Positions 41,251 through 49,415 of a stretch of DNA of 64,000 bases are shown here, piece after piece (position 1 is the first letter of the stretch; each line of letters opens with the position of its first letter). Under the pieces are notes generated by a model, which worked only from the letters and a program-made list of their open reading frames with translations, searched no databases and was not told the origin of the DNA. The DNA is from Candidatus Eremiobacterota bacterium. GTDB lineage: Bacteria > Vulcanimicrobiota > Vulcanimicrobiia > Vulcanimicrobiales > Vulcanimicrobiaceae. The position numbers and the translations under genes are program-made. The stretch lies in NCBI GenBank assembly GCA_019240525.1, contig JAFAYE010000001.1, positions 1,461,300-1,525,299 on the forward strand, in the 5' to 3' direction.

Positions 41251-41808
41251 ATGATTCGCAATTTTGTTTTCGCGGCGGCAATCGCAGCGCTGGCGTCTCC
41301 TGCACCGGCTGAGGCGGCGCTCGCGACGGGCGGAAAGGCGCCCGATTTCACCTTGCAGGCGACGCAAGGCGGCAACGTCTTTACGTTCAGTTTGGCAAGT
41401 GCGCTCAAGAAGGGTCCGGTCGTACTCTATTTCTATCCCGCCGCGTTTACGAAGGGCTGCACGATGGAAGCGCACGAGTTCGCCGATGCAATCGACGAAT
41501 ACAAGGCGCTTGGCGCGACCGTTATCGGCGTGTCACACGATCCAATTGCTACGCTGCAAAAGTTCTCGGTCAGCGACTGCCGCAGCAAGTTCGCCGTCGC
41601 GGCCGACACCAATCAGAGCGTTATGAAAGCGTACGACGCGGTGCTTCCGATGCATCCGCAATATGCCAGTCGCACGTCGTACGTCATCGTGCCCGACGGC
41701 ACCATCATTTACACGTACGACAACCTTGACGCGTCCTTGCACGTCCAAAATACGCTGACGGCGCTGAAGGCCTGGAAGGCCGACCACGCCTCAGGCGCCT
41801 CGCCGTAA
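41251..41808 (+). CDS. Exported peroxiredoxin (AhpC/TSA, Bcp-like)
   Basis: 185 residues with a cleavable signal (MIRNFVFAAAIAALASPAPA), placing it in the periplasm. Thioredoxin fold with GGKAPDFTLQATQGG, VLYFYPAAFTKGCTMEA including the peroxidatic Cys, and a second Cys in VSDCRSKF that may resolve. VIGVSHDPIATLQKF follows the Bcp pattern. Reduces peroxides. The 3' end overlaps the convergent rmuC by 18 bases. Confidence 0.88.
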   Translation: MIRNFVFAAAIAALASPAPAEAALATGGKAPDFTLQATQGGNVFTFSLASALKKGPVVLYFYPAAFTKGCTMEAHEFADAIDEYKALGATVIGVSHDPIATLQKFSVSDCRSKFAVAADTNQSVMKAYDAVLPMHPQYASRTSYVIVPDGTIIYTYDNLDASLHVQNTLTALKAWKADHASGASP

Positions 41809-43841: not shown

Positions 43842-43959
43842 CCTGCCGGAGATTTGCGCGGCCGAAGCCTCGAATCCTCGAACGCGTGTTTGGGACGGGA
43901 GGCTCCGCGCCGCGTTCGAATAGTATCTTCGCCGACGGAAAAAGGAGACTTAAGTTAAC

Positions 43960-44661
43960 TTGGATCGCAAGGACTTCCTCGCCGCTTCCATTTCAGTAGC
44001 CGCGTCGAGCGTGGCGCAGTCCCCCGCCCGGGTACCCGGCGGGACGCACCGAGTCGAGCGCCGCGCCGATTTCGACGAGAAATCCTTCGCCGAAATCGTC
44101 GGCCGGCGCGCACAGATACGTCAGCTTTACGAAGCGGTGAACTTTTTGCCGGGCGTGCTTTCGAGCATCAGCAATTCGTTCAACGGTTTGCAGTTCGGGT
44201 ACGGTTATCCGGCCGGCGAAATCGCCCTCGTCCTGGCCGGCCACGGTCCATCTGCGGTCTATGGCTACAGCGATTATGTCTGGAGCAAATACCGACTCGG
44301 CGAGTTCTTCAAGTTGACCGACGAGACCGGTGCAGCGATTTCGTCGAACGTTTTTTTGTCCAGTCGCGCGCCGTTCGTTCCGTCGTCGGATCCCGACGAC
44401 GCGGCCTCGATGTATCATGACTCGTCGATCCAAACGCTGCAGCGGCGAGGCTTGATCGTGCTCACCTGTCACACGGCCGTTGAAGAACAGGCGCTGGCGA
44501 TCACGAAGAAGGGCTTCGCGCCGGCCGGTCTGGGGCCCAGCGACGTTGCCGACGATATCCTCACGCATTTAATTGCCGGCGCGGTCGTCGTTCCATCGAT
44601 GGTCGCAACGATTGCGGTATTGCAGAACAAATACCACTACGCCTATTTGACGCCGCTTTGA
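43960..44661 (+). CDS. DsrE-like exported protein coupled to a diheme cytochrome
   Basis: 233 residues, TTG start 11 bases after AAAGGAGA (43941-43948). The N-terminus (MDRKDFLAASISVAASSVA) looks like a Tat-type signal in which the twin Arg is reduced to Arg-Lys. The body fits the DsrE/DsrF-like fold: YPAGEIALVLAGHGPSAVYG, DYVWSKYRLGEFFKLTDETG, LQRRGLIVLTCHTAVEEQAL with a Cys. Assignment is by pattern only. It overlaps by four bases the TsdA-like cytochrome, which suggests a shared role in sulfur or electron transfer. Confidence 0.55.
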   Translation: MDRKDFLAASISVAASSVAQSPARVPGGTHRVERRADFDEKSFAEIVGRRAQIRQLYEAVNFLPGVLSSISNSFNGLQFGYGYPAGEIALVLAGHGPSAVYGYSDYVWSKYRLGEFFKLTDETGAAISSNVFLSSRAPFVPSSDPDDAASMYHDSSIQTLQRRGLIVLTCHTAVEEQALAITKKGFAPAGLGPSDVADDILTHLIAGAVVVPSMVATIAVLQNKYHYAYLTPL

Positions 44662-45446
44662 AGCGCACGGCATTCGCTGCGGCCGCGGTCCTCGTTTTGA
44701 GCGCCTGTTCGGCGGGCGTTCGAAGCGGCACCGGCCTTTACGACGTTCGGACACTTCCAGACGGACCGGTCGGGACGTCGATTCAGTACGGATACACGCT
44801 CCTCGTGCAAACGCATCGCTTGATGAAAGGATACGTGCGCGCCGATTTGGAGTGTTCCGATTGTCATCTACGTGCGGGCACGCAGGCGCGCGGCGGGACT
44901 CTCGTCGGAGCCTACGCGCGCTTTCCGCAATGGAACAAGCGCGCGCACCGCGTGATCGCCTTACAGGATCGCATCGCCGAATGTTTCCTCTACAGCATGA
45001 ACGGACGCGCGCCCGCGTACAACGGCAAGGCGATGATCGCAATTGTCTCATATATTGCCTGGATCTCTCGCGGCACGCCGATCGGCGCCGCTGCGCCGGC
45101 ATCGGATCGCTACGTCGAGCCGCTGCCCAGCGGCTCGCCGAACCCGATCCGCGGCGCCACCGTTTACGCGCAAGATTGCGAGCGCTGCCATCAGCACGAC
45201 GGCGCCGGCCGTTCCGGCACCGTTCCACCGCTCTGGGGACGCCGCTCCTTCAACGATGGTGCCGGCATGGCCCATGTCGATCGCATGACCGGGTTCATTC
45301 ACTACAACATGCCGCAGGACGCACCCGGCTCGCTGACGCTCTCACAAGCCTACGACGTGGCCGCGTTCGTCCTGAGCCACCGGCGCCCGCACTTCCGTAA
45401 GAGTGCGCTCGTTCTCTGGCCGCCGTTACCGGCGAAGTCGTTCTAG
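44658..45446 (+). CDS. Diheme cytochrome c of the TsdA/SoxA type (thiosulfate dehydrogenase candidate)
   Basis: 262 residues, TTG start overlapping the preceding stop. Lipoprotein-like signal (LSAC) and two heme motifs, CSDCH (66-70) and CERCH (174-178). Between them RIAECFLYSMNGRAPAY matches TsdA, where the Cys (here 109) is an unusual axial ligand of heme 1, and SYIAWISRGTPIG. The second heme has a Met candidate in HYNMPQD (218). TsdA oxidises two thiosulfates to tetrathionate, or the reverse, in the periplasm. Function inferred from these motifs. Confidence 0.8.
   Translation: MKRTAFAAAAVLVLSACSAGVRSGTGLYDVRTLPDGPVGTSIQYGYTLLVQTHRLMKGYVRADLECSDCHLRAGTQARGGTLVGAYARFPQWNKRAHRVIALQDRIAECFLYSMNGRAPAYNGKAMIAIVSYIAWISRGTPIGAAAPASDRYVEPLPSGSPNPIRGATVYAQDCERCHQHDGAGRSGTVPPLWGRRSFNDGAGMAHVDRMTGFIHYNMPQDAPGSLTLSQAYDVAAFVLSHRRPHFRKSALVLWPPLPAKSF

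Positions 45447-45497: not shown

Positions 45498-49415
<3,918 letters not shown>

Follow-up and report, generated by a model that had tools for sequence, protein, structure and literature searches.

What is to be made of a gene for a presumably exported protein of DsrE type that runs into the start of a gene for a thiosulfate dehydrogenase cytochrome, and would the two proteins act on thiosulfate together? The question is raised by a stretch of 64,000 nucleotides (hereafter the window: positions 1,461,300 to 1,525,299, forward strand, of contig JAFAYE010000001.1, assembly GCA_019240525.1) from an uncultured soil bacterium of Candidatus Eremiobacterota, in which a preliminary description had proposed that a DsrE-like sulfur carrier and a TsdA-type cytochrome make up a compact periplasmic thiosulfate system. 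Two open reading frames (ORFs) are concerned, and their coordinates, including the four nucleotides by which ORF1 overlaps the start of ORF2, proved exact:

43960-44661, + strand: ORF1, 233 amino acids, start codon TTG; predicted exported DsrE-fold protein, divergent homologue of family NF052225
44658-45446, + strand: ORF2, 262 amino acids, start codon TTG; TsdA-type diheme cytochrome c, predicted lipoprotein

The answer to which I incline, by a modest amount and on the strength of sequences and a structural model, is that ORF1 and TsdA would work as one joint periplasmic module that oxidizes thiosulfate to tetrathionate. The pair itself displays homologies, a predicted fold, invariant residues and a conserved linkage. 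Papers cited here by PMC number are drawn on through excerpts.

Relatives of ORF1 were found at 34 Eremiobacterota-type loci (54-72% identity, the nearest in records named Candidatus Eremiobacterota), and TsdA adjoins ORF1 in 31 of them, 30 times on the same strand and once head-to-head; the three exceptions are L031 and L042, where the contig runs out, and L041, where a 2-oxoglutarate-dehydrogenase-like gene comes straight after ORF1. Across 149 genomes of the phylum, 80 hold an ORF1-family match at E 1e-5, and among the matches listed an ORF1-family gene lies within 3 kb of 53 of the 68 TsdA places (52 times upstream on the same strand), while 46 of the 51 closest ORF1 places adjoin TsdA; of the remaining five, G042 and G043 are treated below, in G064 and G068 ORF1 stands at a contig end and TsdA starts another contig, and in G123 the two are on different contigs. 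This census covers 101 ORF1-family places (E 2.2e-13 or better, weaker rows dropped) and the 68 TsdA places, which take in the listed matches as far as E 1.3e-44 together with a fragment at a contig end in G021; a G090 fragment (1.9e-27) and every further row, for the most part generic cytochromes, were set aside. In several of the 53 pairings either ORF1 or TsdA is a fragment at a contig end (G064, G072, G104, G021, G046). Close kinship among many of the loci, and the overlap of the 34 loci with the 149 genomes, mean that the counts are not independent. The preliminary description had suggested looking for the pair in other genomes, and there it is. Distant homologues also occur in another family of the class (clusters L084, L085 and L086), where G017 and G025 carry a row of metallo-beta-lactamase-rhodanese, distant ORF1 homologue, TauE, rhodanese and TsdA, and G021 has the same sulfur genes, except that two ORFs of the opposite strand come before its ORF1-like gene and its TsdA is truncated where the contig stops; these rows are clearly a sulfur-oxidation setting. 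Genome G125 (L102) encodes a pair of distant ORF1 homologues separated by about 9 kb.

The sole named relative of ORF1 is the NCBIfam family NF052225, 'thiosulfate dehydrogenase' (TSD), to which ORF1 aligns nearly end to end (E 6.6e-28, 97.8 bits; ORF1 residues 32-228 on profile positions 66-258 of 259) and which at E 0.01 matches ORF1 only in the window's genome, a 2.8 Mb assembly of 5 contigs that is 97% complete. Since the equivalog cut-off of the family (300 bits) was tested and ORF1 scores below it, ORF1 is filed here as a divergent homologue and not as a member, and in the tree it falls in a clade separate from the TSDs over the cut-off. Other searches were less productive: ORF1 has no Pfam match, phmmer returned only urease matches (E 0.22), and a PDB profile search with the family alignment A1, which omits the truncated L042, gave two matches only (E 0.52 and 1.3). 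From its name and length, NF052225 would represent the type of Acidithiobacillus ferrooxidans AFE_0042, an enzyme of about 25 kDa with an acid optimum that reduces neither ubiquinone nor horse cytochrome c and whose type is described in a review as unsettled in structure and mechanism (PMC6335251), its electron acceptor being drawn as '?' in a 2024 review (PMC10859504, figure legend). Because this only named relative is a cytochrome-free TSD family, ORF1 appears at least as likely to be an enzyme component as a sulfur carrier.

A TSD can also take the place of ORF1. In G084 a TSD over the cut-off (401.6 bits) directly precedes TsdA in the slot of the window's ORF1, and the order TSD, TsdA, 2-oxoglutarate-dehydrogenase-like gene (the last named by its N-terminus) is that of the window; because this TSD sits inside an otherwise Proteobacterial TSD clade (support 98/94), the locus suggests that TsdA stayed while its partner was exchanged. 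Of 72,556 plasmid records, 24 encode a TSD homologue and 51 give a TsdA match; TSD and TsdA coincide in 15 records, and in 14 of these, from 6 of the 12 genera, they are within 5 kb of each other (6 of the 14 are Paraburkholderia fungorum, and for Bradyrhizobium SK17 and B. betae the count draws on wider regions). It is this proximity of relatives of both genes in two bacterial phyla that makes a single thiosulfate-oxidizing unit probable. Acetobacter ascendens, with TsdA 16 kb from TSD, is not among the 14. The TSDs scanned from 6 of the 14 linked records all exceed the NF052225 cut-off, as do all nine proteins (eight plasmid, one from G084) of the canonical TSD group in the tree, and plasmid protein L045 falls under it at 285.2 bits. 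In Caballeronia, TSD, TsdB and TsdA are consecutive, and in Bosea a 545-residue TsdB-TsdA-like fusion lies just upstream of TSD. Taking in the DoxDA gene beside TSD on a Kozakia plasmid, discussed below, gene order makes it seem that TSD is partnered by one or the other of two electron acceptors, TsdA(B) or DoxDA. A further DsrE protein, this one PF02635-positive, is encoded in the Caballeronia cluster (L044:2295-2786), and an annotated DsrE family protein lies near a Paraburkholderia cluster (L050:1615-2115).

If ORF1 belongs with TSD, what kind of protein is it? The preliminary description had seen a DsrE-like pattern and a Cys at the end of a strand, and both are present in an AlphaFold2 model built from 34 sequences (predicted local distance difference test score, pLDDT, 86.1), the absence of a DsrE fold having been named beforehand as grounds for giving the idea up. 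Structural realignment of this model placed 8 of 998 chains at Z of at least 8 (8.3-12.6, the next row at Z 5.0), namely 2pd2 (Z 12.6, root-mean-square deviation 1.4, 106 residues aligned), 8uja, 1l1s (12.5), 1jx7 (9.7), 3mc3, 3pnx, 2hy5_A DsrE (8.4) and 2fb6. Of these, 3mc3, 3pnx and 2hy5 carry DsrE-type titles, I take 2pd2, 1l1s, 1jx7 and 2fb6 to share the fold, and the designed cage 8uja, from its equal length and score, was probably built on 2pd2. A plain Foldseek run was not significant (best E 0.2), 3pnx DsrE having the top probability among the matches listed (0.51); the DsrE profile PF02635, a search that the preliminary description had proposed, matched neither ORF1 nor, at E 0.1, any protein of the window's whole genome, and alignment A1 against one DsrE protein gave a weak match (probability 2.6). 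A bridging ORF of 188 residues (L128, genome G048) matches both PF02635 (E 4.5e-4, 20.8 bits against a cut-off of 22.7) and NF052225 (E 6e-13), and the two families are therefore linked by sequence. It is this ORF together with the structural realignment that speaks for DsrE, the other sequence tests being weak or negative, and ORF1 is best said to model as a DsrE fold. The early claim of an exported DsrE-like protein thus holds for the modelled fold and not for recognition by a DsrE profile, and export is judged from an N-terminus of low model confidence (residues 1-23, pLDDT <50), with a twin-Arg motif in only 2 of the 34 relatives (L009 and L013). The residue on which the chemistry would turn is the following:

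44467-44469, + strand: Cys170 of ORF1, proposed sulfur-binding residue; Cys in 62/62 distinct family members

It is the sole Cys of ORF1 and ends strand 165-170 of the model, and its column, the only one of the alignment with Cys in at least five rows, is Cys in every one of the 62 distinct ORF1/TSD family members (90 collapsed by identity), TSDs over the cut-off included, which makes a catalytic role within the TSD family plausible. A profile alignment sets the Cys of the TSD family on a DsrE Cys with P only 0.048.

The identity of ORF2 is a simpler matter, and the preliminary assignment is confirmed by sequence: it carries two CXXCH sites plus RIAECFLYSMNG, its best solved relative is Allochromatium vinosum TsdA 4wqc (E 3.5e-45, over ORF2 residues 32-254), and it matches the Pfam families PF21342 SoxA/TsdA (E 4.6e-15) and PF00034. 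Its features, with conservation in the TsdA alignment A2 (28 of 32 available sequences; L013, L016 and L020, start unresolved, and L032, at a contig end, were left out), are these:

44706-44708, + strand: Cys17, presumed lipid-attachment Cys of lipobox VLSAC; Cys in 28/28, LPAM_1 only E 0.066
44853-44867, + strand: heme 1 site CSDCH, C66-H70; invariant, 28/28
44982-44984, + strand: Cys109, heme 1 axial ligand and catalytic Cys (A. vinosum Cys123) by alignment; 28/28
45177-45191, + strand: heme 2 site CERCH, C174-H178; invariant, 28/28
45306-45311, + strand: Asn217-Met218 at heme 2, Met the expected axial ligand; Asn 27/28, Met 28/28

C109, R95, R105 and S113, each present in 28/28, correspond by counting along the 4wqc alignment to C123, R109, R119 and S127, the catalytic residues of A. 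vinosum TsdA (PMC4423706), and because of the Cys17 lipobox ORF2 is predicted to be a lipoprotein. Asn217 occupies the position of the switching Lys208 at heme 2 of A. vinosum TsdA, where Campylobacter jejuni TsdA has Asn254 (PMC5146829); the solved chains 4wqc, 4wq7 and 4wqd themselves vary there in the ORF2 alignment. Asn217 does not fix the direction of the reaction. Seven aligned plasmid TsdA keep the heme Cys (C109), Arg105, Ser113, Asn217 and Met218 and have Lys for Arg95 (a stricter heme 1 text pattern missed three plasmid TsdA; the alignment shows the Cys in 7/7).

How, then, might the pair work? Thiosulfate, which in relatives a solute-binding protein would deliver, might first be joined oxidatively to a cysteine, giving an S-thiosulfonate; a second thiosulfate would free this as tetrathionate, and the two electrons would pass from TsdA heme 1 to heme 2 and on to the respiratory chain. 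ORF1, presumably soluble and exported, might present thiosulfate or thiosulfonate to the predicted lipoprotein TsdA, which would fill the place of the missing electron acceptor of TSD-type enzymes; the simplest joint scheme would have C170 share in the S-thiosulfonate chemistry while TsdA takes the electrons. Precedents exist for both halves, since TsdA works through a heme-Cys S-thiosulfonate (PMC4423706) and M. cuprina DsrE3A, a DsrE-fold protein, reacts with tetrathionate to give a Cys S-thiosulfonate, which it then hands over (PMC4175335). Complex formation, the division of labour, the direction and the substrate are what I infer for ORF1-TsdA, and as far as sequence goes ORF1 may be catalyst, thiosulfate presenter or carrier. 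A tentative extension, which I rather doubt, is that a hitherto unnoticed two-component machine for thiosulfate oxidation occurs in two phyla, a DsrE-fold TSD handling substrate or thiosulfonate for TsdA as a minimal counterpart of SoxAX-SoxYZ, and the Acidithiobacillus TSD being the same component with DoxDA.

Several observations weigh against the joint module. ORF1 lies so far under the NF052225 cut-off that TSD activity is not transferable to it. Among the matches listed, 15 of the 68 TsdA places are more than 3 kb from any ORF1-family gene (a contig end may be the cause for two of them, G068 and G114), and G042 (96% complete) and G043 (79%), of the window's own genus, keep ORF1 with no TsdA-grade match among those listed, ORF1 standing directly before the 2-oxoglutarate-dehydrogenase-like gene (L124, L125); an obligate ORF1-TsdA partnership is therefore rejected, and ORF1 can have another acceptor or role. 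On plasmids, 9 of the 24 TSD records lack a TsdA match at E 1e-20, among them that of Kozakia, whose TSD, solute-binding protein and DoxDA genes resemble the A. ferrooxidans set AFE_0042-0043-0044 (PMC2754497). Neither a solute-binding protein (one relative as query, no positive control) nor SoxB (best match 80.2 bits against a cut-off of 550) was found in the window's genome, and a Sox context was rejected for it. In purified form A. vinosum TsdA shows activity with no partner of this kind (PMC4423706), the heme 2 Asn is that of the tetrathionate-reducing C. jejuni enzyme, and the cultured Vulcanimicrobium alpinus, of the same phylum, showed no lithoautotrophic growth on thiosulfate despite its Sox genes (PMC9758169), a comparison made without knowing whether V. 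alpinus carries the pair; thiosulfate use by members of the phylum is still putative.

The alternatives overlap with the joint module and with one another, and their likelihoods need not sum to one. The chief rival, and the view of the preliminary description, is that ORF1 is a thiosulfonate or sulfane carrier and not an electron-yielding enzyme: TsdA would conjugate thiosulfate to its heme Cys and hand it to C170, as has been proposed for SoxAX and SoxYZ, and a further enzyme would use the ORF1-S-S-SO3. SoxA is homologous to TsdA and has been proposed to transfer to a carrier Cys (PMC4423706), and the ORF1 family has one invariant Cys, with distant relatives beside metallo-beta-lactamase-rhodanese, TauE and rhodanese genes; the DsrE-fold protein of M. 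cuprina does bear a thiosulfonate, but it reacted with tetrathionate and not with thiosulfate (PMC4175335). Considering also that the characterised family member is described as a tetrathionate-making enzyme (PMC6335251) and that no SoxB exceeds the cut-off in the window's genome, I think a carrier unlikely. The overlapping or tightly spaced genes of many relatives, and the arrival of a TSD over the cut-off in the slot of ORF1 in G084, would be unexpected for unrelated duplicates, and it is thus quite improbable that ORF1 and TsdA are two independent or redundant thiosulfate dehydrogenases merely sharing an operon and its regulation, even though each occurs without the other in some genomes and TsdA purified elsewhere is active alone (PMC4423706). 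Least probable of all is the reductive direction, in which tetrathionate would be the electron acceptor and ORF1 would handle the thiosulfate formed: TsdA enzymes are bifunctional and, like C. jejuni TsdA, ORF2 has Asn where the A. vinosum enzyme has its heme 2 Lys, yet changing that Asn to Lys in the C. jejuni enzyme failed to adapt it to thiosulfate oxidation (PMC5146829), and the same Asn is found in the seven TsdA aligned from Proteobacterial TSD-TsdB loci, which may themselves run in either direction.

Does the joint module of ORF1 and TsdA end with two genes? In 19 of the 34 loci ORF1 is preceded by the gene for a solute-binding protein (PF13531) with weak similarity to proteins that bind molybdate, sulfate and thiosulfate, and such a gene adjoins TSD in 6 of 10 plasmid regions; with this gene and TsdB in the neighbourhoods a plain two-gene system was rejected; of the compact pair first proposed, the conserved pairing stands and the limit to just two genes falls. 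The window's genome has a weak DoxD match elsewhere (35.9 bits, cut-off 22.7), and no TusA- or DsrF-type protein was found among the five window proteins scanned. The remaining features of the locus are as follows:

43942-43947, + strand: AAGGAG, candidate ribosome-binding site 12 nt 5' of the ORF1 start codon, read from the sequence
43960-44031, + strand: presumed ORF1 signal peptide (Sec or degenerate Tat, MDRKDFLAA...), from relatives' N-termini and low model confidence
44658-44661, + strand: TTGA, the 4 nt common to the ORF1 stop and ORF2 start

In the 27 of 30 co-directional pairs for which a script assigned start codons, 13 overlap (7 by 4 nt, 6 by 20 nt) and 14 are spaced by 5-20 nt, from which translational coupling of ORF1 and TsdA is a fair inference. 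Upstream of ORF1, on the opposite strand, lies a gene of dienelactone-hydrolase type with a weak Tat signal match, and downstream of TsdA (45498-49415, + strand) lies a 1305-residue, 2-oxoglutarate-dehydrogenase-like E2-E1 fusion with lipoyl, E3-binding, 2-oxoacid acyltransferase, E1 and 2-oxoglutarate dehydrogenase C-terminal domains; genes with a similar N-terminus come after TsdA or ORF1 in L041, L087, L124 and L125. An AhpC/TSA-type peroxiredoxin with a signal-like N-terminus is encoded at 41251-41808 (+ strand) and, since a protein similar by eye lies near ORF1 of L041, the surroundings of the pair look conserved within the genus.

Set beside known systems, ORF1 shares with AFE_0042 TSD (taken as NF052225) near full-length homology, the Cys invariant within the family examined and presumed export, and the solute-binding protein gene beside it in many relatives recalls AFE_0042-0043-0044, whereas its separate clade, its 97.8 against 300 bits and its partner, TsdA instead of DoxDA, set it apart. 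ORF2 has the two CXXCH, heme 1 Cys, Arg/Arg/Ser and heme 2 Met of the A. vinosum and C. jejuni TsdA and of Marichromatium purpuratum TsdBA and differs from them as a predicted lipoprotein that has no adjacent TsdB and a DsrE-fold protein as its neighbour. With the DsrE/DsrF/TusD and DsrE3A sulfurtransferases ORF1 shares the modelled fold, one conserved Cys and the bridging ORF, but it is presumably exported, about 100 residues longer than the DsrE-fold chains of the structural realignment and unrecognised by PF02635. The pair resembles SoxAX-SoxYZ in setting a SoxA-type cytochrome beside a Cys protein, with a possible protein-bound thiosulfonate, and is unlike it in the DsrE fold of ORF1 and in a genome without SoxB over the cut-off. 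Both protein families are already known; what is new, as far as the literature searched goes, is that the TSD family is assigned a DsrE fold, that Eremiobacterota have a divergent subfamily, and that TSD and TsdA are recurrently linked, a linkage of which no mention was found in that literature (excerpts of PMC8357290, PMC6548844, PMC9774590 and PMC10301885 included), which is not proof of absence. Many NF052225-type proteins bear the name 'transcriptional initiation protein Tat' in plasmid and public annotations, a misleading one; a protein so named, presumably of NF052225 type, is listed among transcription factors (PMC5438186).

The DsrE fold, the invariant Cys and a recurrent TsdA or DoxDA neighbour make the structure, mechanism and electron acceptor of TSD directly testable. 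If the proposal is true, an Acidithiobacillus TSD working with DoxDA would explain its missing electron acceptor, and the pair of ORF1 and TsdA may provide a thiosulfate route for Eremiobacterota without SoxB.

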